Shown: positions 1 through 31,504 of the stretch, one piece after another
Numbering within the stretch: position 1 is the stretch's first letter
How the letters are laid out: each line of letters begins with the position of its first letter
From: a virus
IMG/VR virus record: IMGVR_UViG_3300028384_000897
Span: 1 to 54,784 of that record
Length of the DNA: 54,784 bases
Strand: one strand, 5' to 3'
Notes under the pieces: model-generated
What the model was told of the DNA's origin: nothing
The model's input: only the letters and a program-made list of their open reading frames with translations
Database searches by the model: none
Made by a program: the position numbers and the translations under genes

Positions 1-783
1 GCTTTCTTCAGTGCTTTCATCCTCAGAGTTTTCAGTTTCTGAACTTTCAGAGCTTTCTTCGCTTTCGTTGCTTGAATCAGACCCTTCTTCTCCTGACGAA
101 TTATCATCGCCGCTATCTCCATCCCCAGAAGAGTTATCTGAATCTGAAGAACCACTGTCATTATCCGAGCCAGAAGACCCACTCTGATCGTCACCCCCTC
201 CTGAGTCGCTACCGCCAGAAGAGTCTCCTCCTCCACTGTTTCCGGAATCGCTTCCTCCTGAGTTATCGTTACCAGAAGATCCTGAAGACCCTCCTGAGCT
301 ATCTCCGCCCCCAGAGCTTGAGCTTCCTGAGGAGTTACTTCCTGAGTTAGATGAGCTTCCTCCTGTATTTGTTGATCCTGTGTTTCCATTTGTATTTGTA
401 TTAGTTGAACCTGTGTTAGTACTACCAGTATTATTCGTAGCATTAGATGTAGCATTATTAGCTGCATTAGTTGCGTTTGAAGTTGCGTTGTTAGTAGTTT
501 GTTGAGTAGTAGTTGTATTAGCTTGTCCTGTGGAGCATGGAGACAATGCTTGCCACCATTGGTACGTTTCCTCTAACCAAGCCTGTAAGGTACCGTTTGT
601 AAATTCTGCTGCCGTAAATACTCTAGATTTGTTATAAAAAGCAACAACAGTAGATCCGTTTATATCTACTGAAAATACTTTTACTTCTCCAGTACATCTA
701 TCTGTATAGGTCTGAACAAGGGCCTGTGAATGGCCCTTGAACATCCCCATCGCAGCAATTACTAAGAACAGTAACCATCTCAT
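1..783 (-). CDS. Secreted low-complexity protein, 3' end cut by window edge
   Basis: An open frame runs from ATG at 783 to base 1 (261 codons) without a stop, so the C-terminus lies outside the window. Residues 1-20 look like a Sec signal peptide (MRWLLFLVIAAMG, then GHSQA). Residues 20-95 are an ordinary small domain containing Cys, Trp and aromatic residues. The rest is low complexity: first Asn/Thr/Ala-rich, then Gly/Ser, then Ser/Asp/Glu and increasingly acidic. It starts 5 bp downstream of the CsgG-like gene and is probably co-transcribed with it, so it is a candidate substrate or surface partner of that pore (inference). No family is recognised. Confidence 0.75.
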   Translation of the reverse strand, partial: MRWLLFLVIAAMGMFKGHSQALVQTYTDRCTGEVKVFSVDINGSTVVAFYNKSRVFTAAEFTNGTLQAWLEETYQWWQALSPCSTGQANTTTTQQTTNNATSNATNAANNATSNATNNTGSTNTGSTNTNTNGNTGSTNTGGSSSNSGSNSSGSSSSGGGDSSGGSSGSSGNDNSGGSDSGNSGGGDSSGGSDSGGGDDQSGSSGSDNDSGSSDSDNSSGDGDSGDDNSSGEEGSDSSNESEESSESSETENSEDESTEES

Positions 784-788
784 AACAC

Positions 789-1532
789 TTAGTGATCAAA
801 TATTTTCTTGCGTATCATTCTCTTTACGATCTTAGCAACTGCTGTCTCTAAAGCTTTACGTGTTGAGATACCAATCGATGATTGATTAAATTGAACTTCA
901 TCAAGATTTTGATCATTAAGTAATGTTACTTCCCTAGTAGTTTTTGCGAGTCCTAAACCTGAACCGGTCATATATAGTCCAGTTTGTGCGTCGACCATTT
1001 TAACTTGAAGTCCAAGTCTGGTCACAAGAGTATTCTTTACTCCGTCTTTTAAATTAATAGTTTCATCTTCTGATATAGAAAAATCATATATTTCAACATA
1101 AGCGAAATACCGAGCAAGAGTAATTTTTCCTCTAATCTCTATTTCATTAGCTGTAAATCCTTTTTGAGAAGCTTTAAACTGTACAACCATACGGTCTTTA
1201 ATCTCCTCTTTAGTTTCTACAAACTCAAATCTAAAAGTTTCATCTAAAAATGCTACAGTAATATTCGTTAGACCTAAGCCTACACGATAATCCCCAAGTT
1301 CTGGGTACTGTGCTAAAATGTCATCTGTTAAACCTACGTTTAGAAGAGCTACTGGTACTGGATCACCGAAGTATTCTGGAATTGAATATAGCGAGGCCTG
1401 TCTTTCAAATTCCGCTTGATAATCCTCAGTAGTGGTCTTTCCAACGACTTGTCCGTTAATAAATCCTATATTAAATAATAATATAAGAAATATTCTAATT
1501 GCCAAGAGTATCGAAGACCCCGAACGTAGCAT
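789..1532 (-). CDS. CsgG-like curli export pore protein
   Basis: This 247-residue protein has an N-terminal hydrophobic signal (about residues 8-28, ending near NGQ). Its C-terminal half resembles the CsgG family: RLGLQVKMVDAQTG followed by an alternating strand, and an SSIGISTRKALETAV helix near the end. In E. coli, CsgG is the outer-membrane nonamer that exports curli subunits. The usual lipobox Cys is absent, so anchoring may differ. The start overlaps the upstream small membrane gene by 38 bp; a start slightly further downstream is possible. It sits in a cluster of secreted and membrane proteins, which supports an export role. The family assignment is from pattern only. Confidence 0.6.
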   Translation of the reverse strand: MLRSGSSILLAIRIFLILLFNIGFINGQVVGKTTTEDYQAEFERQASLYSIPEYFGDPVPVALLNVGLTDDILAQYPELGDYRVGLGLTNITVAFLDETFRFEFVETKEEIKDRMVVQFKASQKGFTANEIEIRGKITLARYFAYVEIYDFSISEDETINLKDGVKNTLVTRLGLQVKMVDAQTGLYMTGSGLGLAKTTREVTLLNDQNLDEVQFNQSSIGISTRKALETAVAKIVKRMIRKKIFDH

Positions 1533-1722
1533 TGTCTAAGTCAGCTTGTCCTGTAAGTAATCCTATTACAAGAGTAAACCACCCGACAATAAAAAGTGTA
1601 AATAAGCCAGCTACCCAAGCTAGCAAAAAAGCTTGCCAAATTTTTAGTGCTAAAGTTGGCTGCTTGAAAATATCTTCATATATTTCAATGAAAGGGTTTG
1701 CGAAAAAGTTAATTACATTCAT
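1495..1722 (-). CDS. Small two-helix membrane protein
   Basis: I take the ATG at 1722 (MNVINFFANPF, 75 aa), not the longer frame from 1785, because the extension is basic and overlaps the upstream gene. Two hydrophobic stretches (about residues 22-60) predict membrane insertion. The 3' end overlaps the start of the CsgG-like gene, suggesting coupled translation. No family is recognised; the location points to the export module. Confidence 0.55.
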   Translation of the reverse strand: MNVINFFANPFIEIYEDIFKQPTLALKIWQAFLLAWVAGLFTLFIVGWFTLVIGLLTGQADLDNATFGVFDTLGN

Positions 1723-1738
1723 AGTTTTTAATTTAAGG

Positions 1739-1996
1739 TTACCAATCAAATTCTTTCTTCTTAGGAGGTTCCGGTTTTGCGACAACTGGGACCTCTTTTT
1801 TTTGTAGAACTACAATAGTATCTTTGCTGCTTTCTTTTATTGGTTCAGATACTACCTCTTGTTTTACTTCGTCATCACTGTCGAAGATTTTTTCCATATT
1901 AGCAATAAAAAGTCCACCTGCAGTTGTTATAGCTAAGGTTACGACTCCTATTATTGCTTTTTTAATTTCTCCAAATGAGTTTTCTTTATCTGCCAT
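1739..1996 (-). CDS. Single-pass membrane protein with charged, Pro/Lys-rich tail
   Basis: This 85-residue protein has a short charged N-terminus, one hydrophobic helix (about residues 13-33), then an acidic and Lys/Pro-rich tail ending PEPPKKKEFDW. It lies 1 bp downstream of the lipoprotein gene stop, in the same transcription unit. The topology suggests an inner-membrane anchor with a soluble tail. The function is unknown. Confidence 0.6.
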   Translation of the reverse strand: MADKENSFGEIKKAIIGVVTLAITTAGGLFIANMEKIFDSDDEVKQEVVSEPIKESSKDTIVVLQKKEVPVVAKPEPPKKKEFDW

Positions 1997-1997
1997 A

Positions 1998-2372
1998 CTA
2001 ATCTATCATTGTAAAGGATTCAATACCTAATACATTATTAAATTGATCAACAATATGTACTTGGTATGAACTCTTATCAAGTGCTGTAGTATAAATGTTA
2101 AGTAAGTTATCTCCTGCTGAAGCAAATACCTTATCTTGTGATACTACTTTACCTGCTATATTAATAATTTTTATTCTGTAGTTTCCTTCGACGTCAAATT
2201 TAGCATTAATTGCAACTTTATTAGTTACAATAGCGCTTTCTAATTTAAGTCCGATAGGATCTACTATTTGTAGAGCTTCAGGAACTTCTTCTATGTAGTT
2301 AAAGTCTTCAAATTCGTCTTTAGTACATCCTAGTACTACAAATAAGGATAAGAGTGTTAATAGTTTTTTCAT
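1998..2372 (-). CDS. Lipoprotein with C-terminal beta domain resembling a T9SS sorting domain
   Basis: The start MKKLLTLLSLFVVLGC is a clear lipoprotein signal; the lipidated Cys is residue 16. After an acidic linker the last 65 residues (from GNYRIKIINIAGKVV to the end) form a small beta-sandwich pattern similar to type A sorting domains of the Bacteroidota type IX system. That likeness is by eye. The gene belongs to the export module and follows the cohesin/dockerin-like gene by 6 bp. A lipid anchor and a sorting-type domain on one protein would be unusual, so the C-terminus may simply be a generic Ig-like fold. Confidence 0.65.
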   Translation of the reverse strand: MKKLLTLLSLFVVLGCTKDEFEDFNYIEEVPEALQIVDPIGLKLESAIVTNKVAINAKFDVEGNYRIKIINIAGKVVSQDKVFASAGDNLLNIYTTALDKSSYQVHIVDQFNNVLGIESFTMID

Positions 2373-2378
2373 TTTATA

Positions 2379-4067
2379 TTAGTATTGGAATTTAACTTTA
2401 GTTCCGTCTGCTTTAACTCCTTCAATAATTTTAAAGCTTATCAGTCCTGCTGTGTTTGTTATGTTTTCATTTGCTGTAAAAATTAATCTATATGGTCTAC
2501 CTGTTTTAACTGATACATCTCCATTATAGTCTAAAGATCCAAAAGAGGCTACATTAGCTTTAACAGTACCGAAGTTAGTCATAGTGTTACCTGTATCATA
2601 AACAATATCATCTAATGTTAGTATGTTATTATCAAATACAATTTTAAATTGAGATCCTGCTAATCCTTCTGTATCTAGGTTTACATCTACATATACTTTA
2701 CCATCCTCTAATGTTGAAGCAATATCTATAGTTTCTGTTACTACTTCTCTGTTAGCAATTATCGAATAAGCTTGTGCATTTCTAGCAGATGTAGATTGAG
2801 CATTTGAATTATTAAAGGTAGGTACTGTTGAATGAGAAAAATCTAAATCTCCTCTTAACCCATGACCAATAGTAAAAGACTTATCATCATCTGTTGCAAT
2901 AAAAGTACGAGCACCCATAAACTCAGATATATCTCCATAAGTATCCATCAATGATGAAAAGTTAAATGCTCCGTTGTCCTTAGAGGTTACATTAGCACTT
3001 GTTGTCACTCCATTTACATGAGCTAATAATTCATAAGAATCATCAAAATTTACTTGACCATCGTTAGTTACTTCTCCTAATATAGCTTGTACTTCATGCT
3101 CCCAATTAGCTGATCCTCCACCAGGTCCGTCTGTAGAGCCTAGAGAGAATTGAAATGCTTTAAAGACATCTGTTACTGTTACTACATCATCTAACCAAGC
3201 TGGGTTACCAGATACGTAAGTATGAACCCATACTTCTTCGTTCAATGTTAAAGTAGCAAGAGAAGTAGTACCGTTAGCGTTAAATGTACCTGTAGTAAAA
3301 GGAGTTTCACCACTCTTAGGTTCTAAACCGTCACTAACACCGTCTCCATCGTAATCAACTTCTTCTAACTGGTTAGCTGTATAGATAGCATATTCGTAAT
3401 CTGATTTATAGTCTGTAGGAATATTCAAGTTTAATGTTACATCTCCTGCTCCAACTCCTCCTGGATCTAAGCCACTGATTTGATGATTATTTGAAGTAAG
3501 TTGGTGTACTGTTCCATCTCTATTGTCTTCGAATTGAGCCCAGTTAATTTGAAAAGCACCAGTATAGTTTTGATAGGGAGTACCTTGTCTATCTAAGATC
3601 TTAAATTTCATATGTACTACTGCATCATATAAGTTAATATCTTCTGATGCTTGAGTAGTAAACCTGGCAACTGAGAAATCATTATCTGAAGGGTATGAAT
3701 TTGAACCAACGGCGGCAGCTCCTCCGTTCCACCATAAAAACTGTCTGTATAAATTAGATGAACTATAGTCAAAATCTTGGCCAAACTTATAACCAGTCCA
3801 ATCTGTGTACGCTGCTTGTTCACCGGTTAATTTATTTAACGGGTCTATAGTATGGCTAACATACTCCAGTAATTTATTATTCCATTGAACGTCAAAACGT
3901 AAAAATGTACCTGGCATAGTCGATTGACCTGAGGGAGGAAACAATTCAAATTTAAGTTCAATTTCATCTCCTACGTTACCATCAGCACCGTAGTTCATAC
4001 CAACGTTAAACTGTTGCCCGAAAGCTACCATTGGTAATGTTAATAGTAAAAATAATAGTTTTTTCAT
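2379..4067 (-). CDS. Large secreted protein with cohesin-like and dockerin-like segments
   Basis: This is a 562-residue secreted protein with a typical signal peptide (MKKLLFLLLTLPMVAFGQ). Residues 30-165 and about 450-562 have the alternating strand pattern of cohesin-like beta sandwiches. Residues 238-249 (DYDGDGVSDGLE) form a thrombospondin type 3-like calcium loop, and residues 331-350 (GEVTNDGQVNFDDSYELLAH) look like one dockerin repeat. Such modules make calcium-dependent protein contacts at bacterial surfaces. The ATG at 4067 overlaps the upstream stop as TAATG. In a phage this could be an exported cell-surface matrix protein or a particle decoration; a Sec signal favours export from the infected cell. 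Confidence 0.65.
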   Translation of the reverse strand: MKKLLFLLLTLPMVAFGQQFNVGMNYGADGNVGDEIELKFELFPPSGQSTMPGTFLRFDVQWNNKLLEYVSHTIDPLNKLTGEQAAYTDWTGYKFGQDFDYSSSNLYRQFLWWNGGAAAVGSNSYPSDNDFSVARFTTQASEDINLYDAVVHMKFKILDRQGTPYQNYTGAFQINWAQFEDNRDGTVHQLTSNNHQISGLDPGGVGAGDVTLNLNIPTDYKSDYEYAIYTANQLEEVDYDGDGVSDGLEPKSGETPFTTGTFNANGTTSLATLTLNEEVWVHTYVSGNPAWLDDVVTVTDVFKAFQFSLGSTDGPGGGSANWEHEVQAILGEVTNDGQVNFDDSYELLAHVNGVTTSANVTSKDNGAFNFSSLMDTYGDISEFMGARTFIATDDDKSFTIGHGLRGDLDFSHSTVPTFNNSNAQSTSARNAQAYSIIANREVVTETIDIASTLEDGKVYVDVNLDTEGLAGSQFKIVFDNNILTLDDIVYDTGNTMTNFGTVKANVASFGSLDYNGDVSVKTGRPYRLIFTANENITNTAGLISFKIIEGVKADGTKVKFQY

Positions 4068-4534
4068 TATAATTTTAATTTACGTATCAAATCTTCACAG
4101 AGTTTTTTAATTGCTGTCGAGACGTTTGCCTGTGAGAATACCCCGCCTTGATCTATAATTAACGTAGCTGTTGTTACAGATTTAGCTGTTCCTTTAGCTA
4201 CTGCTTTTCTTTTCTTTTTGCCATTAGTATAAACGCCTCTAGCGATTATCTGATAGACATCAATATTTTTTGCAAAAGCTGCCAGTTGAACGTTATTTTT
4301 TTTAACGTCAAAATATAGCAGTTCTACTTCCAGTAAATTATTTGAGTTTGGATTAAGATCATAGCCGAAGTCTTGTACAACTTCTTCTAGTACATTCTTT
4401 ACACCGAATGCTAGGTCACGGTTACCTGCGAGTTCACCGATGACGATACTGTTCTTAACGTCTACTATTTGTAGTTCTTGACCAATTGCTAAGAAACCAA
4501 ATAGAAAACTTAGTAAAAATAATAATATTCTCAT
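4067..4534 (-). CDS. Exported protein of the CsgG-like module, unknown family
   Basis: I choose the ATG at 4534 (MRILLFLLSFLFGFLAIGQ, a good signal peptide) over the ATG at 4561, which adds a polar extension. The mature part of about 135 residues contains an alternating beta pattern and ends in a basic amphipathic helix (STAIKKLCEDLIRKLKL). It is not recognisably CsgE or CsgF. It is the first gene after the terminator at 4673-4700 and the late-type motif at 4654-4661, so it probably opens the export operon. Confidence 0.6.
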   Translation of the reverse strand: MRILLFLLSFLFGFLAIGQELQIVDVKNSIVIGELAGNRDLAFGVKNVLEEVVQDFGYDLNPNSNNLLEVELLYFDVKKNNVQLAAFAKNIDVYQIIARGVYTNGKKKRKAVAKGTAKSVTTATLIIDQGGVFSQANVSTAIKKLCEDLIRKLKL

Positions 4535-4653
4535 ATAATTACTGCTTTGCGACTGCAACAATTATAAAACGTTTGTAGAAAAACGATTGTAGAAAAACGG
4601 TTAGATAGGTTAGTCGACTTTTTGGTTACCTTTGTCGAATAATCCTGTACATT

Positions 4654-4661
4654 TATAAATA
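4654..4661 (-). promoter_or_regulatory. Late-type promoter motif upstream of export operon
   Basis: The coding strand reads TATTTATA, immediately after the terminator at 4673-4700 and upstream of the export operon. It matches the motif found before many structural genes in this window. A promoter role is inferred. Confidence 0.45.
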
Positions 4662-4672
4662 TACATATAAAA

Positions 4673-4700
4673 GGAAAAGGGCACTAAAAAGTGCCCCTTT
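4673..4700 (-). terminator. Rho-independent terminator
   Basis: In transcript orientation, GGGCACT and AGTGCCC form a 7-bp stem with a short T-rich loop, followed by TTTTCCTTTT. It lies downstream of the zinc-ribbon gene and just before the promoter motif of the export operon. Confidence 0.8.
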
Positions 4701-4735
4701 AATCATAAATTTCTTCCTGTAAACCGGAGTATTTT

Positions 4736-4957
4736 CTACTCCAATTTTTTTCCCTGCTTTGGTTGGAAGATTTCGTTAACGTGTCCACATTTGTCACATG
4801 AGAAGACTGGGACGGGGATAAACGATGGCTCTCTTTGTCCTGTAAGGAAGCCTGATACTTGCCTGATAACGAGTGTTTGTCTGAAATACGGTGAACTACA
4901 CTCCTCACATACAACCGGAGTTGTCTTATCAAAGTCAACATTTAGGTTTTGCTGCAT
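4736..4957 (-). CDS. Small zinc-ribbon protein
   Basis: This 73-residue protein has two CxxC pairs (CEEC near residue 17 and CDKC near residue 54), typical of a zinc ribbon. Similar small proteins with PVPVFxCxKC are, from memory, common in T4-like marine phages; their function is unknown. An overlapping frame at 4699-4941 has shadow-like composition and was not accepted. A terminator follows directly. Confidence 0.7.
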   Translation of the reverse strand: MQQNLNVDFDKTTPVVCEECSSPYFRQTLVIRQVSGFLTGQREPSFIPVPVFSCDKCGHVNEIFQPKQGKKLE

Positions 4958-4958
4958 A

Positions 4959-5321
4959 TTACTGGTTATAAAGCCCGTAAGCTTTATTAACGAGATTAGA
5001 TTTTCTAAGAGCAGGGTCTAAATCTTCGCCAAAATCAGCTTTTACAGAATCAATTAGTTGTTGCTTTGTAAGAGCGTTCAGATTAGATTTAGTTGGTTTA
5101 CCTTTTACAGCTGATACAACATCACCTAATTCTGCTTTAACCGCTTTAGCTCTTTTCTTAACTTCAGCAACTACTTCTTTTGCATCTTCAACAGCATCTT
5201 CGACTTCGTCTGGAATGCCGTCTTTGTCGGTGTCTTTGGCTAGTCCGAAAAACTTCGTCCCAACCCATACTGCTCCTGCAACTGCTGCTAAGATCAGTAT
5301 AATAATAAGAATTGTTTTCAT
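4959..5321 (-). CDS. Membrane-anchored protein with calcium-loop motif
   Basis: A hydrophobic N-terminus (residues 3-24) is followed by DTDKDGIPDEVE (residues 30-41), a thrombospondin type 3-like calcium loop, then an amphipathic Ala/Val/Lys-rich helix. A C-terminal segment from about residue 84 (LTKQQLIDSVKADFG) resembles a small helix-loop-helix such as SAP or Rho-N (weak). The calcium loop type is shared with the secreted protein at 2379-4067. A late-type motif lies at 5351-5359. Confidence 0.65.
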   Translation of the reverse strand: MKTILIIILILAAVAGAVWVGTKFFGLAKDTDKDGIPDEVEDAVEDAKEVVAEVKKRAKAVKAELGDVVSAVKGKPTKSNLNALTKQQLIDSVKADFGEDLDPALRKSNLVNKAYGLYNQ

Positions 5322-15419: not shown

Positions 15420-15679
15420 TAGTATTCACCGTACAGATCAAATTTCATTGGTTCAGGTTCTTCAACTTGTACTTCGTGTTTCTTAATTGCATATAATTTA
15501 CCATCTAAAGGAGCTAATCTGTACTCACCTTTAAATTTAGTTCTACGCATGTACATGGTAAGAGCCATTACCAGCCCTTCGATAGTAGTTCCTTGATCAA
15601 TAGTCAATTCCCAATTATCTCCAGGCGGTACTCTTGTAGCTATTAGCTCTTTTTCCTCCTCAATGATGATCTCGGCCAT
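15419..15679 (-). CDS. Small hypothetical protein
   Basis: This 86-residue acidic soluble protein has a mixed alpha/beta composition and no recognised motif. It is wedged between queF and the J-domain gene, with end-to-start overlaps on both sides (15679 and 15419), so it is certainly part of the same operon. Function unknown. Confidence 0.7.
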   Translation of the reverse strand: MAEIIIEEEKELIATRVPPGDNWELTIDQGTTIEGLVMALTMYMRRTKFKGEYRLAPLDGKLYAIKKHEVQVEEPEPMKFDLYGEY

Positions 15680-16590
15680 TACTGTCTTAGAGTTTTAGCG
15701 ATTCTATAATCCGTATCGGTAAAGAAATCTGGGATAAATCTTGAATGAGTAGCTCTAATAGGATTAATATCTAAGCCTCCTCTTCTAGTATATAAACAAG
15801 ATACCATAAGGTCTTCTGGTTGGTAAGCATCAGTCAAATGCTTAAACACCATTTCACAAATCTCTTCATGGAAATGACTTACAGTTCTATGAGATACAAT
15901 ATACTTAGCCACCGATTCAGGAGAAGGAATATTTTTTCCTTTCATTCTAATAAATACATCTCCCCAATCTGGTTGATTAGTAACTCTACAATTTGATCTT
16001 AATAAATTAGACCTTAACTTTACTTCTTTAGCTTCCTCTACTACAGTTTCAGTCTCTAATTGTGAAGCATCTGAAGAGAATGCGGTAAAATCGATTTGAT
16101 CTAAATCTGTAATATCAGCTAAATCTTGATAACCTTCGAATGATAATGCTTTACCGTCTTCTTCATCAGTATAGAAACTTACTGTCGTATCTGTTTCAAG
16201 TAACTTATCTAAATCGGCTTTTACTCTTTCTTCAATTTCTAAAATACACTCTACTGTATTATCTCCTAATCTAGTCATATTAAATGAATTTAAATACAGC
16301 TTAATAGACTTAGATTCTACGTGATATTCGGAATCTGAAGAACATACTATTTTTAACATACCCGCTACAGGTAATCCTTTAGTAGTAATTGCTGATACTT
16401 CGTAACAGTTCCAGGTATCTACACCTACAAAGTCTTTATTAGTTAACCCGTAACCTTCTCTATTTAAATAACGAGGTACTTTAACTAGCAACTCAGGAGC
16501 ATAGGTATCTTTATACCCATCTCCTCCTACTTTACCTAAATGCTTTGACGCAATGTCTACTACTTCTTGATAATTTTTTACTTCTGCCAT
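15679..16590 (-). CDS. queF: QueF, preQ0 reductase (long form)
   Basis: This 303-residue NADPH-dependent 7-cyano-7-deazaguanine reductase converts preQ0 to preQ1. It is the long, two-domain type like E. coli QueF. Visible are ESKSIKLYLNSF (residues 92-103), the catalytic Cys201 in SNCRVTNQPDWG with Asp208, SHFHEE, and the C-terminal TRRGGLDINP. Its presence implies the DNA-modification route goes to preQ1, not only preQ0. It starts 3 bp after the nuclease-like gene. Confidence 0.93.
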   Translation of the reverse strand: MAEVKNYQEVVDIASKHLGKVGGDGYKDTYAPELLVKVPRYLNREGYGLTNKDFVGVDTWNCYEVSAITTKGLPVAGMLKIVCSSDSEYHVESKSIKLYLNSFNMTRLGDNTVECILEIEERVKADLDKLLETDTTVSFYTDEEDGKALSFEGYQDLADITDLDQIDFTAFSSDASQLETETVVEEAKEVKLRSNLLRSNCRVTNQPDWGDVFIRMKGKNIPSPESVAKYIVSHRTVSHFHEEICEMVFKHLTDAYQPEDLMVSCLYTRRGGLDINPIRATHSRFIPDFFTDTDYRIAKTLRQ

Positions 16591-19018: not shown

Positions 19019-19554
19019 TGTAATGTAGCACGTAGAAAATTGCACCACATATAGAGACTTCTATCTCTTAGAATTCTAAATAGATCATCAAGAGTATTAT
19101 TCATATTATTAAACCTTTCTTCCATAATAACTCTACCCTCATCAACTCCAGCAGTAACGTGATGAATTACAGCTCCTGCAATAGGATACTTACCTTCAAA
19201 AGCTCTAACTTGAGGATCTTTACCTTTTAGTTCTGGGTATTCAGTTATAAGGCCAGGATGTCCGTTAAACACTCTAAACTTTTCGCAAATCTCAGGAGGC
19301 ATAATTCTCAACCAACCATGTAACGTGATTATAGCTTCCGGAAAGTAAACTAAAAAGTCTTCATACTCCTCTAAAGTAGGTTTATTGTTAAGAGTAAAAA
19401 ACCCTTGCTTTACTATTCTTTCATCAATAGTTCTTAAATGATCAGGTCTTTCATTAGTATATATTCTATCCGGCCATCTTCCTAATGACTCTGCAATATC
19501 TGCGATTTCTGCTCCTGTCTGACTAAAAAATGCTATCCAAACCTTCGTTTCCAT
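19015..19554 (-). CDS. Formyltransferase, DpdN candidate (preQ1 formylation)
   Basis: This 179-residue protein has the formyl-transferase fold of PurN. The catalytic triad is kept: Asn97 and His99 in FNGHPGL and Asp138 in AGVDEGRVI. It lacks any C-terminal sugar-binding domain. It overlaps the DpdA-like gene by 32 bp. A formyltransferase, DpdN, has been predicted in phages carrying 7-(formylamino)methyl-7-deazaguanine in DNA. With QueF in the same region, that role fits best (inference). Alternatives are purine synthesis (PurN) or sugar N-formylation for the surface genes further right. Confidence 0.7.
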   Translation of the reverse strand: METKVWIAFFSQTGAEIADIAESLGRWPDRIYTNERPDHLRTIDERIVKQGFFTLNNKPTLEEYEDFLVYFPEAIITLHGWLRIMPPEICEKFRVFNGHPGLITEYPELKGKDPQVRAFEGKYPIAGAVIHHVTAGVDEGRVIMEERFNNMNNTLDDLFRILRDRSLYMWCNFLRATLQ

Positions 19555-20347
19555 TTGCGTACCATCTAAATTTTTGAATATTAGTTCTAATACTAGATAA
19601 AGTATCAGGACTTACATCTTCGTTAATTAATTCAAACAACTTTTGAGATTCCTTTGACCATAAGCCACCTGATTTGTATTCAATACCTTTTATTCCATGG
19701 ACCACTGGATTACTAGTATCCAAAGAATATAACCAATTATAGTTAGCATGTTTATAAAATTGAAATTCCTGAGGTAAACCACAGCCTAGTAAATGATGAG
19801 GTTTATCTTCATTAATAACACCGTCTTTAAGTAAATCTCCAAGTAACTTAACACGTCCTAGCATCCAACTAACATACTTGTTAGGATGAGGTACAGACTG
19901 TGTATAATACGAATAATCGAAAGATATAGCAATCATATCTACATCTGCTTCTTTATTCATATAATTGTAACAATCTACTATCTCATCGTAAGTTTTACCT
20001 TGAATAACTCCTATTTTGCCGCTACCTTCATAACCAAGACCTTTATTATTCCAGTCTTCCATTTGTTTGCAAGTTTTATCAGCATTCTCTAAAGCATCTG
20101 GAACAATATACCAAGCAGGTCTAATTTCGTTAACCCACTTATCAAACTTATTAGCATCGAAAGCCTCTTCTAACTCAAATATTGAATTATCTAATATTAC
20201 TTCTCTACCTTTTAAGATAGCTTTTTTAAACTGAGCTAGATACTCTGGATCTTCTTCAAATAAATGAACCAAAGCATAATCGTAGTCAGTAAACTTTTGA
20301 ACTTCTTCAAAAATACTTTTAGGACTTTCGTGTGCTATTTTAATCAT
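19523..20347 (-). CDS. dpdA: DpdA-like 7-deazaguanine DNA transglycosylase
   Basis: This 274-residue protein resembles the tRNA-guanine transglycosylase superfamily in the short phage form. Key segments are ILDNSIFE (Asp53), WYIVPDALENADKT, IGVIQG, IAISFDY, KPHHLLGCGLPQEF and SLDTSNPVVHG (Asp210, the likely nucleophile). The C-terminal zinc Cys cluster of bacterial Tgt is absent, as in DpdA proteins. It would exchange guanine in DNA for preQ1 or preQ0. The queC, queD, queE, queF and folE genes nearby support DNA, not tRNA, as target. The subfamily is not assigned. Confidence 0.8.
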   Translation of the reverse strand: MIKIAHESPKSIFEEVQKFTDYDYALVHLFEEDPEYLAQFKKAILKGREVILDNSIFELEEAFDANKFDKWVNEIRPAWYIVPDALENADKTCKQMEDWNNKGLGYEGSGKIGVIQGKTYDEIVDCYNYMNKEADVDMIAISFDYSYYTQSVPHPNKYVSWMLGRVKLLGDLLKDGVINEDKPHHLLGCGLPQEFQFYKHANYNWLYSLDTSNPVVHGIKGIEYKSGGLWSKESQKLFELINEDVSPDTLSSIRTNIQKFRWYANGNEGLDSIF

Positions 20348-21060: not shown

Positions 21061-21397
21061 AATCGTCTTCGTATCTAGTTATATCATCTTCACCGAAATA
21101 AGTTCCGGTTTGTACTTCTATAAAGTTAATTTTATGATTCGTTTTATTCCATGCACGATGTTTTGAACCTTGAGGTATTTGGATTGTTTCTCCAGGTACA
21201 ACAGTATGTTCTACATCATCTACTATAACTGTTAATGTACCATTTACACATGTCCATGCCTCTTTTCTCAATTTATGAGACTGGTATGATAACCTCTGAT
21301 GAGGAGCTACGGTTATTAATTTAACTTTAGTAAACTGAGTATCTAATAATACGTCGTAACATCCCCAAGGTCTTTCATCATGTTCTAATGCTTGCAT
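21050..21397 (-). CDS. Cupin, mannose-6-phosphate isomerase type II-like
   Basis: This 115-residue single cupin matches the C-terminal domain of ManC/type II phosphomannose isomerase: RPWGCYDVL, APHQRLSYQSHKLRKEAW, VNGTLTVIVDD, IPQGSKHRAWN, and FIEVQTGTYFGEDDITRYEDDY. Metal ligands (Gln/His, Glu, His) appear in place. It may isomerise a hexose phosphate for surface sugars. It overlaps folE and the MazG-like gene. Confidence 0.78.
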   Translation of the reverse strand: MQALEHDERPWGCYDVLLDTQFTKVKLITVAPHQRLSYQSHKLRKEAWTCVNGTLTVIVDDVEHTVVPGETIQIPQGSKHRAWNKTNHKINFIEVQTGTYFGEDDITRYEDDYER

Positions 21398-22053
21398 ATA
21401 CCTGCTAATTCTATATTTTTATAAAACTCTGCTCTAGCCGAATCTTCGTTTAAGAAACATCCGGTTAACTTAGCTGTTTGCATAGATGCACCGTGATGCT
21501 TAACTCCTCTACAACTTACACAGTTATGAGTTGCATCAATCATTACAGCTACTCCTAAGTTACCTTCACATATCTTATCAATAGCATTGTGAATAGCTAC
21601 GGTAAGCTGCTCTTGAATAGCACCTCGTCTACCAAAATGCTCTACAATTCTATTTAACTTAGATAGACCCACAACTTTACCGTTCTTAGAAGGTACATAA
21701 GCTATACTAACTTTACCGCCGATAGTTTGATGGTGATGACTGCACATAGAAGTAACTGGTATATTACTCTCTTGTACAATACCGTCGTAACCGTCAGAAG
21801 GAAATGCAGTAATCTCAGAAGGTGCATCGTAGCGTCCTTTCCAAAGATCAAATACATACGCTTTAGCCACTCTTCGAGGAGTGTCAGCTGAATTAGGATC
21901 GTTTCTCCAATCACAACCTAAAGCATCTAAAAATTTACCATAGGCCTCGGCTGCTTCTTCTACCATAGACCATTTTTCTTTTTCTGTAAAAGGAAAGCCA
22001 GGAGCTACTCCATTTGCATAACCTGCTTTTACGAGTTCTAAATCTTTACTCAT
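21385..22053 (-). CDS. folE: GTP cyclohydrolase I
   Basis: This 222-residue enzyme converts GTP to dihydroneopterin triphosphate, the first step towards preQ0. Zinc ligands are visible in SMCSHHHQ (Cys and His) and the later Cys in NCVSCRGV; GLSKLNRIVEHFGRR and QEQLT are also conserved. In this window it supplies QueD, since queD, queE, queC and queF are all present. A TTCATATATT-type promoter motif lies 22 bp upstream. Confidence 0.95.
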   Translation of the reverse strand: MSKDLELVKAGYANGVAPGFPFTEKEKWSMVEEAAEAYGKFLDALGCDWRNDPNSADTPRRVAKAYVFDLWKGRYDAPSEITAFPSDGYDGIVQESNIPVTSMCSHHHQTIGGKVSIAYVPSKNGKVVGLSKLNRIVEHFGRRGAIQEQLTVAIHNAIDKICEGNLGVAVMIDATHNCVSCRGVKHHGASMQTAKLTGCFLNEDSARAEFYKNIELAGICKH

Positions 22054-23186: not shown

Positions 23187-23487
23187 ATTCTAATCCAAAA
23201 AATTTATAGTTATTTTTAACAGCATCTAATTCTCCAGCATCTATAGCATCCTCTTCACTATCAAATATAGCTTCAACTGGGCATTCGGGAACACAAGCTC
23301 CACAATCAATACATTCTTCAGGGTTAATATATAAACTCTTACCTTGAAGTTCTTCTTTACTCATATTAGCTACTTCAGCACCAGCTCCATCGATATCTAT
23401 AGGTCCGTGAATGCAGTCGACAGGGCAAACTGCTACACAGGCTGTGTCACAAGTACTAATGCATGGAGAACCTATAATAAAACTCAT
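23176..23487 (-). CDS. Two-cluster bacterial-type ferredoxin
   Basis: This 103-residue ferredoxin has a first Cys set (PCISTCDTACVAVCPVDC) and a canonical second set CIDCGACVPECPVEA, so it should carry two iron-sulfur clusters. It overlaps queE by ATGA-type coupling and lies directly downstream of it. QueE is a radical SAM enzyme that needs an electron donor, so this ferredoxin may be its dedicated reductant (inference from position). Confidence 0.9.
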   Translation of the reverse strand: MSFIIGSPCISTCDTACVAVCPVDCIHGPIDIDGAGAEVANMSKEELQGKSLYINPEECIDCGACVPECPVEAIFDSEEDAIDAGELDAVKNNYKFFGLEYVG

Positions 23488-24260
23488 ACCTCTCTTTGAT
23501 CATTAAATGCCATAATATGAGCCCTACCTGTAAATCTCCATCCTCTATCTCTTACAAAATCCATTACTTTAGGATAAGATTCAAACAAAGAATCTCTGGT
23601 ATCCCCTGCTGGCATTGCCCATACTTTATCATCTGGTATATCTAAATCTTTTAAGAACTCTTCTACTTCATCTAGGATACTAAATTCTTTATCGAGTACA
23701 GGTTTAATATGATAATCTTTATGATACTCTATAGATTGTTTTATAGCTTCTTTATTTACTCTAAATCTATTGTGAGTTTTAATCATTTTTTCGTCGACCA
23801 CTTTTCCTTGAGGAGTAAGAGTCCCAACAACGGGGATACTATTACTAAATTTAGGAGAAATACTGAGAAGATCGATAGGATAATCAGTAGGAAGGAAATG
23901 AGATCCTTCGTTTTCAATAGTAATAAATATACCGTTTTCATGAGCAAAATGTGTTAGTTCATTAACAAGCTTTTTATGCATAGTAGGTGAACCTCCAGTA
24001 AGCATCATTTCTTTAATATGAGGATTCTCTTCATATTTTTTGATAATATCATTAAAAGAATATTTACCTTTTTCAGGATGAATCGAAGTATACCAACTAT
24101 CACACCAACCGCCTTCACCGAAGTAACATCTATGTGTACATCCAGTAGTTCTAATTACTATAGTAGGAAAACCTTGTCTACTACCTTCCGATTGAACTGC
24201 GGTATATACTTCTACTATAGGTAAATTTTTATCGTAATCTTCAATCCTGCCCAGGCTCAT
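23484..24260 (-). CDS. queE: QueE, 7-carboxy-7-deazaguanine synthase
   Basis: This 258-residue radical SAM protein carries out the ring contraction of 6-carboxytetrahydropterin to 7-carboxy-7-deazaguanine. It begins with VEVYTAVQSEGSRQGFPTIVIR, carries the cluster motif CTHRCYFGEGGWC (C-x3-C-x7-C, wider than the usual CxxxCxxC), then MLTGGSPTMH. The C-terminal half (VWAMPAG...) fits the family. It overlaps queD and the ferredoxin. Confidence 0.9.
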   Translation of the reverse strand: MSLGRIEDYDKNLPIVEVYTAVQSEGSRQGFPTIVIRTTGCTHRCYFGEGGWCDSWYTSIHPEKGKYSFNDIIKKYEENPHIKEMMLTGGSPTMHKKLVNELTHFAHENGIFITIENEGSHFLPTDYPIDLLSISPKFSNSIPVVGTLTPQGKVVDEKMIKTHNRFRVNKEAIKQSIEYHKDYHIKPVLDKEFSILDEVEEFLKDLDIPDDKVWAMPAGDTRDSLFESYPKVMDFVRDRGWRFTGRAHIMAFNDQREV

Positions 24261-24714
24261 ATATTGCTGAATTTTTATTATGTTCTCTAAATTCTACTTT
24301 AGCTATTTTTACCCTACCGTTAGTTTCCTTTACGATAAAAGGGTTAACTTTATTGTAGATAAACTCTGCAAATTTCTCTGCTCCTACTGCAGGTATGACT
24401 CGTAACTGAATAATACCTTTAGAACCTAGTCTTGTGAAAGAGTCTAAAGAAGGATCATCTTCAGCCATAACTACGGTATGGTCAAACATATAATCAAACC
24501 ACTCCTTAGGACTCATCCCATCAATTTTACCTTCAGCTCTCTTCATTCCACCGAAATCCCATACCCAGTTACGATTATCTAAATCTCCTTCAAAAGTTAA
24601 TTTAAACGATACGCCGTACCCGTGTAAGAATTTACAGTGAGTTGTTTTTGCTTTCCATTGACGAAAACAAGTAGAAAATCCGTCAAATACTTTAGTTGAT
24701 TTAAAATTTCCCAT
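24241..24714 (-). CDS. queD: QueD-like 6-carboxytetrahydropterin synthase
   Basis: The start at 24714 (MGNFKSTKVFDG, 157 aa) shares its base with the upstream stop (TAATG); a longer frame from 24774 adds an unrelated Cys-rich stretch. The pterin synthase pattern is FSTCFRQW...THCKFLHGYGVSF, with WVWDFGG and FDHTVV further on. In E. coli QueD the zinc ligands are three His; here the first position is Phe and HGH is HGY, with another His next to the catalytic Cys. This may be a variant family. Confidence 0.82.
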   Translation of the reverse strand: MGNFKSTKVFDGFSTCFRQWKAKTTHCKFLHGYGVSFKLTFEGDLDNRNWVWDFGGMKRAEGKIDGMSPKEWFDYMFDHTVVMAEDDPSLDSFTRLGSKGIIQLRVIPAVGAEKFAEFIYNKVNPFIVKETNGRVKIAKVEFREHNKNSAIYEPGQD

Positions 24715-24992
24715 TATACTAATTCTTCTATTATACCAACAACTTCTGATAACACTAAAATACCTGCAGCCCAAGGAAGGCTAAAAGGTATAAGTATATA
24801 ACCTAATATACGAATTCCTGATTTAATAAACGACACAATTTGGTGTTTTTTTGCGTCCGGATAGTTTTGGGATTGATTTGGAGAAGCTTTTACTGCTTCT
24901 TGATCAAGCAGATAATCTGCTCTTAATACTCTTCTTGATTCTGGATCTCTAAGAGAATCCATAATCTCTTTTTCTGTAGAATTATTTACCAT
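24714..24992 (-). CDS. Small protein with C-terminal membrane helix
   Basis: This 92-residue protein has a charged N-terminal half (SLRDPESRRVLRADYLLDQE) and one or two hydrophobic segments near the C-terminus (ILGYILIPFSLPWAAGILVL). It leads the queD-queE-ferredoxin unit, with queD coupled to its stop. Function unknown. Confidence 0.6.
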   Translation of the reverse strand: MVNNSTEKEIMDSLRDPESRRVLRADYLLDQEAVKASPNQSQNYPDAKKHQIVSFIKSGIRILGYILIPFSLPWAAGILVLSEVVGIIEELV

Positions 24993-30709: not shown

Positions 30710-31504
30710 CTAAGCAGCGTATTCGGCTAGTAGTTTTTCAACATGTGCTTTCGCAACTTCGTAACTAACTGGTCCAGTCTCGTCTTCATATTGAACGGGA
30801 TCATCAACACCCAAATTAATAAATGCTTCAATCCTTTCAACAGATGACGCACTTTTGTAATCAGAGTTTCCTGATGGGTATGGTTTGTACGAGGTATTCG
30901 TTCTTCTGTATACTTCGCTAAAATCCAATTCCAATGCTTCTGTGAGTTTTTCTCCATCTTTAAGAATTCCTAATTTGTCAGTTTCCAAGTAAGGAGTAAA
31001 GTACCCTACTTTCTCTGCTTCCCAGTTACCTATTCTAAAGGCAGCATCGTCAGCATCTCTAAACTCTTGTCTACAGTCTGGGTAGATAGCATGATCACCA
31101 GCATGAATACCTAACGCAATATCAGTATCTAAACCATTTGCATTAGCAGCTGATAAAGCTACAGCTTGAGTAATAGAAGCAAATATTTTATTCCTATTAG
31201 GAACAACAGTTGCTTTCATGTTATCTTCTTCGTAATGACCTTCTGGTACATCTTCACCACCTTGAACAAGGTTAGAATTTAACAGGTTAACTAAACCATC
31301 TAGTTTAATCACTTGATAAGTCACTTTTTGACCTTTATCTGCTAGATAATCGACCAATTGTTGAGCTCTTTCAAGTTCTACTCTATGCTTTTGACCGTAA
31401 TCAAAAGATAAAGCTGTTACGTTGTCATACTCAGATAAACATCTAAGTAATAATGTTGAGGAGTCCATCCCTCCACTAAGACTAACTACGACATTTTTTG
31501 CCAT
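30710..31504 (-). CDS. queC: QueC, 7-cyano-7-deazaguanine synthase
   Basis: This 264-residue ATP-dependent enzyme converts 7-carboxy-7-deazaguanine to preQ0. The PP-loop SLSGGMDSS is at residues 8-16, and the GIHAGDHAIYPDCR segment and VVPNRNKIF are kept. The usual C-terminal zinc site (four Cys) is absent: residues 203-224 read NTSYKPYPS...SDYKSASSVER, with Ser or other residues where Cys are expected. The gene stands about 6 kb from queD and queE. Confidence 0.88.
   Translation of the reverse strand: MAKNVVVSLSGGMDSSTLLLRCLSEYDNVTALSFDYGQKHRVELERAQQLVDYLADKGQKVTYQVIKLDGLVNLLNSNLVQGGEDVPEGHYEEDNMKATVVPNRNKIFASITQAVALSAANANGLDTDIALGIHAGDHAIYPDCRQEFRDADDAAFRIGNWEAEKVGYFTPYLETDKLGILKDGEKLTEALELDFSEVYRRTNTSYKPYPSGNSDYKSASSVERIEAFINLGVDDPVQYEDETGPVSYEVAKAHVEKLLAEYAA

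Follow-up and report, generated by a model that had tools for sequence, protein, structure and literature searches.

A conserved, probably late envelope gene module with a CsgG-like protein in Bacteroidota phages

Introduction

CsgG clusters have been reported, and left unexplained, in phages of SAR11 and OM43 (PMC7029224, PMC9004378), and for the Melnitz/pelagimyophage cluster a role in lysis or aggregation was proposed (PMC7029224, PMC9004378). Here we analyse a set of exported genes around another CsgG-like gene, located at the end of the virus contig IMGVR_UViG_3300028384_000897, the 54,784 bases of which we call the window. The Pelagimyophage/Melnitz CsgG-CsgF cluster (HTVC008M; PMC7029224, PMC9004378) resembles it in encoding a phage CsgG-fold protein (a low-confidence prediction in our case) amid exported genes, but HTVC008M has a genuine PF03783 CsgG (E 1.8e-54) and an annotated CsgF, whereas the present module, from Bacteroidota phages, has neither and carries instead cohesin proteins and a predicted 12-stranded barrel. 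Phages of another phylum seem here to have recruited a CsgG-fold protein a second time, unrelated in sequence to the first and with other partners. The literature that we searched, with partial coverage, holds no description of this module.

A first reading of the window, made from its letters alone (the original prediction), had proposed a dedicated outer-membrane export machine with its substrates, built around a CsgG-like pore and more than a lysis cassette. Our analysis partly confirms the gene cluster that it observed and partly supports its envelope or export interpretation. We tentatively favour a late, phage-encoded envelope module that alters the infected cell's surface just before it lyses, with a contribution to lysis itself as the closest competitor.

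Results and Discussion

The genes of the window are largely collinear with those of Flavobacterium phage vB_FspM_immuto (160 kb, from the Baltic Sea, host Flavobacterium sp. LMO8), with identities of 63% for the tail sheath, 77% for DnaB, 81% for NrdA and 67% for GroEL. Nine adjacent open reading frames occupy the minus strand at 1-5321, as the original prediction held, but its cluster extends in our hands to seven of them only: these are co-directional and tightly packed at 1-4531 and constitute the module proper, since a terminator-like hairpin and a promoter-like site split off the other two, which are probably separate from it. The module lies at the extreme end of the contig, and its final gene is therefore incomplete. 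The features are as follows (aa, amino acids; nt, nucleotides; TM, transmembrane; T9SS, type IX secretion system).

1..783, minus strand: N-terminal part of a predicted outer-membrane protein (signal peptide, domain of ~85 aa, low-complexity linker), cut by the contig end
789..1532, minus strand: predicted CsgG-fold protein, starting at ATG 1532 or TTG 1505, with a signal peptide without lipobox
1495..1722, minus strand: 75-aa inner-membrane protein with a conserved C-terminus ...NATFGVFDTLGN, overlapping the next start
1739..1996, minus strand: 85-aa protein with one N-terminal TM segment, an extended tail, a motif of KDT-V-V type and a C-terminal Trp
1998..2372, minus strand: 124-aa lipoprotein with a T9SS-tail-like/DUF3244 beta-sandwich body
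2379..4067, minus strand: 562-aa secreted protein with a C-terminal cohesin-like domain, on family profile evidence
4067..4531, minus strand: YajG-like exported 164-aa protein, first gene of the module, likely ATG start at 4531
4652..4661, minus strand: late-promoter-like site TATTTATAAA, 130 nt upstream of the first module gene
4675..4700, minus strand: terminator-like hairpin within a 204-nt gap, dividing the module from the upstream genes
4736..4957, minus strand: 73-aa Zn-ribbon-like protein without signal, located before the terminator
4959..5321, minus strand: 120-aa protein with an N-terminal TM segment, upstream neighbour

Direct reading of the sequences gives Sec-type N-termini on four proteins (the incomplete one of at least 261 aa, the CsgG-like, the 562-aa and the 164-aa protein). 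The 124-aa protein has a lipobox, and the 85-, 75- and 120-aa proteins contain membrane segments. This agrees with the earlier description of most products as carrying Sec or lipoprotein signals, and of a lipoprotein, small membrane proteins and an exported small protein among them. A tandem repeat, CGTTTTTCTACAA, lies at 4572-4599, in the gap directly before the first module gene; it is unique on the window's coding strand and may be a regulatory site.

Relatives of the CsgG-like protein are encoded in at least 436 IMG/VR stretches, and the module is found in many marine Bacteroidota phage contigs as well as in the isolate immuto. A search for the same cluster in related phages found the gene order kept across a set of 95 distinct CsgG-like relatives. 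In 84 of 91 the next gene after the CsgG-like one encodes a barrel; upstream, among the 78 loci where 5.5 kb were available, we found the cohesin protein in 77, the YajG-like protein in 72, the lipoprotein in 68 and the 1-TM protein in 65. Such recurrence of neighbours among distinct relatives shows that the module is not a chance assembly. Its internal order is constant while its flanks vary: it may lie on the side of GroEL and a Zn-finger gene, on the nrdA side or upstream of a convergent nrdA, and in other loci a 2-TM gene and an endolysin enclose it. The module genes are under purifying selection, strongest on the CsgG-like gene (ratio of nonsynonymous to synonymous substitution rates about 0.06-0.09). 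Among 299 Flavobacteriaceae genomes searched for host homologues, the sole match was a phage-like contig of a metagenome-assembled genome (MAG), and tblastn with single sequences of the barrel, cohesin and YajG-like proteins gave no match in the phage collection. One relative (relatives are designated by L and a number), L036 (CAIWBA010000291.1), is a 254 kb contig in a Bacteroidetes MAG with the appearance of a large phage contig binned as bacterial; besides the module it has a further barrel-like gene and encodes a dockerin-like protein, and a homologue of the 73-aa Zn-ribbon protein also adjoins its module.

The timing of expression is suggested by a promoter-like motif. TATTTAT[TA]A[AT] (TATTTATWAW) has 13 copies on the window's coding strand, against none on the other strand; copies stand close upstream of the tail sheath, tail completion and tape measure genes and ~20-40 nt before many virion genes. 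Because the motif was chosen from the window, immuto offers a fair test of it. In the two immuto segments with most virion genes, noncoding DNA makes up 4-7% of the sequence but contains 6 of 7 and 8 of 9 sites (P 1.5e-8 and 3.4e-9). TATTTATWAW is, on this sequence evidence, a probable late promoter element common to both phages. A site stands 68 nt before immuto gp14 and similar ones precede the module in several relatives; since the motif of the virion genes thus precedes the module in the window, in immuto and in these relatives, the module is probably expressed late. We also considered the Bacteroidota-type TTG/TAnnTTTG promoter pattern, which we rejected, having found it at only two chance-like places.

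The incomplete gene at the contig end had been taken for a low-complexity secreted substrate. Its Sec-type N-terminus stands, but the protein is better described as a truncated outer-membrane barrel protein and not as a substrate. In its full-length relatives (420-632 aa) a low-complexity linker joins a Cys2 domain to a C-terminal beta-barrel. The ~85-aa N-terminal domain, with two conserved Cys and a Trp-rich motif, is conserved in 22 sequences, and the final ~210-250 aa end in a hydrophobic residue, usually F or L. AlphaFold2 on 21 relative sequences gave an all-beta, 12-stranded barrel with a mean predicted local distance difference test score (pLDDT) of 89.3. In Foldseek and VIA searches the nearest structures were NalP, KdgM and FapF, with VIA Z scores of 21.8 for the NalP translocator (194 residues, 2.4 A), 21.4 for KdgM and 20.2 for FapF. 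As the C-terminus of the relatives models as a barrel, we take the 261-aa piece in the window for the N-terminal part of such a protein.

The CsgG-like protein is 47-48% identical to immuto gp17. Its AlphaFold2 model, built without immuto rows, reached a pLDDT of 55, with a CsgG-like order of strands and helices and long strands at 130-149, 152-169 and 175-191. CsgG chains were the top Foldseek matches (4uv2, E 1.5e-4, probability 1.00; 6l7a) with TM-scores of 0.24-0.35, and GNA1162, PelC and FlgT ranked near them; in VIA the model gave Z 6-7.4 to CsgG (7.4 to 6lqh) and 9.1 to Cj1090c. These comparisons suggest, with low confidence, a fold of the CsgG superfamily and a protein that probably forms a ring. 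The likeness to PelC, GNA1162, LptE and YajG is one of predicted fold class for this protein, and to YajG for the 164-aa protein; the sequence relation is weak or absent, and here the genes stand in a phage operon with a barrel. The 164-aa protein matches NCBIfam PRK11627 (YajG) at E 2.3e-4, below the cut-off of that model, and Pfam Lipoprotein_16 at E 0.004, while profile comparison of the YajG-like and CsgG-like families aligns the signal peptide and a short stretch alone.

Two module products carry features of surface proteins. The original prediction of a cohesin/dockerin-like protein holds for cohesin at the level of the family, in which 8 of 14 members match Pfam Cohesin (best E 5.2e-6) and the profile finds a scaffoldin cohesin in the PDB (E 0.007), but a Pfam scan of the window's own 562-aa protein found neither cohesin nor dockerin. 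The cohesin proteins of immuto (gp15) and L036 combine a cohesin with a C-terminal T9SS tail (TIGR04183) above the cut-off and so resemble type IX cargo, whereas the lineage of the window has a tail-like domain on a separate protein, the lipoprotein, where it scores below the cut-off. In the lipoprotein family 15 of 19 members match Por_Secre_tail (best 1.7e-6), and PDB profile searches gave nothing convincing. After its lipid Cys the window's lipoprotein reads C-T-K-D-E, which fits C-x-K-(D/E)2, the signal by which Bacteroidota lipoproteins are exported to the cell surface (PMC5080379). This motif, or a near variant, is kept in the close relatives of the window and not in the L014-L022 group. 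As for the small membrane proteins, the 75-aa one is supported by a list of homologues and by synteny, while the 85-aa, 1-TM protein has a proline- and lysine-rich tail, predicted to be periplasmic on a positive-inside reading, which ends in W in all homologues listed.

From the gene set, the sequence signals, their conservation, the barrel model, the late-type promoter site and the usual lysis-gene neighbourhood, we infer how the module may be assembled, oriented in the envelope and used. Sec would export its products, and the CsgG-fold protein, jointly with the 12-stranded barrel protein, would form a ring that lies in the outer membrane or beneath it. The 1-TM protein, with its long periplasmic tail, would tie this assembly to the inner membrane. 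The cohesin protein and the lipoprotein, with its domain resembling a C-terminal T9SS signal, would reach the cell surface, the latter by the Bacteroidota surface-export signal and the cohesin proteins of some relatives by the type IX system of the host. The surface so changed before lysis would most likely exclude other phages or hold neighbouring cells or progeny. Candidate purposes are surface remodelling or superinfection exclusion, on the one hand, and help with outer-membrane lysis, on the other, both unproven. The purposes put forward in the original prediction, a coat on the infected cell, a block to superinfection or aid in aggregation, are likewise candidates only.

Secreted neighbours of the module also speak for this reading. 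Secreted endonuclease G-like genes lie near the module in 16 of 74 loci, in some cases inside it, and lectin-type genes in 3 of 74. An envelope core that stays constant while the secreted genes around it change is what an export or display device would lead one to expect, but is no proof of one. The endonuclease G-like genes of DRGH type adjoin or lie inside the module in L133 (9268) and L136 (7676) and stand immediately upstream of the CsgG-like gene in L086, L088 and L096; their products might attack incoming DNA.

Several points weigh against surface alteration as the role of the module, and keep our preference for it tentative. The barrel was modelled in relatives, and the sequence of the window stops before it; the CsgG-fold model is of low confidence (pLDDT 55), with middling Z scores; the cohesin protein of the window has no T9SS tail and no Pfam cohesin match of its own; and the frequent link to lysis genes is also compatible with a role in lysis. 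The module exists in a cultured phage-host pair, immuto and Flavobacterium sp. LMO8, in which most of its genes are annotated as hypothetical. This makes it testable why phages should build an outer-membrane apparatus late in infection.

That lysis-gene neighbourhood provides a concrete alternative to surface display. We read it in relatives, since the window ends before the place of the hydrolase genes. In a first set of loci with enough flank, a peptidoglycan hydrolase on the same strand lies within 3 kb in 27 of 31, and in a larger set at least 55 of 74 loci have such an enzyme close to the CsgG-like gene; the contigs counted are related and not independent. These hydrolases belong to five families (Amidase_2, M15, GH19, DUF5675 and the PHROG 33083 type). 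As immuto has about three to four peptidoglycan hydrolases annotated in 160 kb, the adjacency is well above random placement. The modules of L010 and L025 enclose an amidase and a 2-TM gene, and in L028 and L031 a 2-TM gene, the module, a GH19 endolysin and a spanin-like gene follow in a row, with a TAATG overlap in L028. The original contrast with a lysis cassette was accordingly too sharp: in relatives, lysis genes usually adjoin the module and sometimes interleave with it.

A real contender, if a somewhat less probable one than surface alteration, is an accessory lysis system. The barrel and the CsgG-fold ring, which the tailed 1-TM protein would anchor to the inner membrane, would in that case open or weaken the outer membrane as holin and endolysin act. 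The recurrent hydrolases of five families and the interleaved loci speak for it, and the authors of Melnitz proposed a lysis role for the phage CsgGF (PMC9004378). However, in four loci of the first set (immuto, L026, L030 and L032) the module lies between nrdA and thioredoxin, away from recognised endolysins, so the lysis link is common but outside the constant core. Separate spanin-like genes exist, no part in lysis is apparent for the cohesin, lectin and nuclease genes, and co-location may reflect late expression only. The membrane proteins of the window gave at most sub-threshold holin or spanin matches in PHROG, and assignment of the 2-TM genes beside the module to PHROG holins failed, except for a 138-aa Phage_holin_4_1 type. 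Beside the module, L183 (8490), L195 (8882) and L205 (8566) encode proteins with an N-terminal membrane segment, an extended V/E/K/P-rich stretch and a small C-terminal beta-rich domain, which by sequence are possible envelope-spanning, spanin-like proteins.

We consider it unlikely, though worth stating, that the module is a widespread, phage-encoded machine of a separate type for trans-envelope secretion or display, with a CsgG-fold ring under an autotransporter- or FapF-like 12-stranded barrel, a Trp-ended tail as link to the inner membrane, and phage adhesins, lectins and nucleases delivered to the surface of the dying cell. The barrel protein shares with NalP, BrkA, EspP and FapF the succession of signal peptide, N-terminal domain, linker and C-terminal 12-stranded barrel (VIA Z 20-22), but identity is 7-9%, none of 21 barrel family members matches the Pfam autotransporter family, PDB profile searches with the family gave nothing convincing, and export of a passenger is putative; moreover, 12-stranded barrels also serve as simple porins (KdgM, NanC).

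A true type VIII (curli-type) machine, with a CsgG pore that exports dedicated substrates, is improbable. In its favour, CsgG chains are the top Foldseek matches of the model, and region 138-161, one of the two that correspond to the CsgG hairpins, alternates between hydrophobic and polar residues. The other region, 175-203, shows no alternation, and the protein has no lipid Cys, its signal region ending ...INGQ in the window and ...Q in homologues. Neither single sequences nor profiles found a CsgG match in Pfam, NCBIfam, PHROG or the PDB. PF03783 is matched by the CsgG-like protein of neither the window nor the relatives, whereas it was found in the controls (E. coli, HTVC008M and 25 of 100 Flavobacteriaceae genomes). 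In hhalign the family gave a probability of 0.8% against a CsgG set from E. coli, HTVC008M and Flavobacteriaceae, and only 22 columns aligned with E. coli CsgG alone, the sequence of which had been verified against PDB 4uv3. CsgE, CsgF and curlin likewise had no match in any module protein scanned, and because they are absent there the module is not a curli system. The label CsgG-like thus survives as a low-confidence predicted fold and fails in sequence profiles, which do not back a CsgG pore. Of the dedicated export machine, the conserved set of envelope and secreted proteins stands, its curli-type pore is unsupported, and one of its supposed substrates is a barrel.

Least probable is that the module proteins are virion components (decoration or fibre): the module and the tail genes have a late-type promoter motif in common, but signal peptides, a lipobox, T9SS tails and a membrane barrel are, judging from established export biology, incompatible with cytoplasmic assembly. 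An ordinary virion role is thus at odds with the export signals, which are of Sec and lipoprotein type and, in relatives, also of T9SS type.

Other features of the window

Beyond the module, GroEL, GroES and a small heat-shock-like protein are encoded in succession by the phage at 9479-11912. Homologues of immuto QueF, DpdA, FolE, QueE, QueD and QueC are found at 15679-16590, 19523-20347, 21385-22053, 23484-24774 and 30710-31504, and represent a 7-deazaguanine DNA-modification pathway. A second motif, TTCGTATATTA, precedes several metabolic genes.

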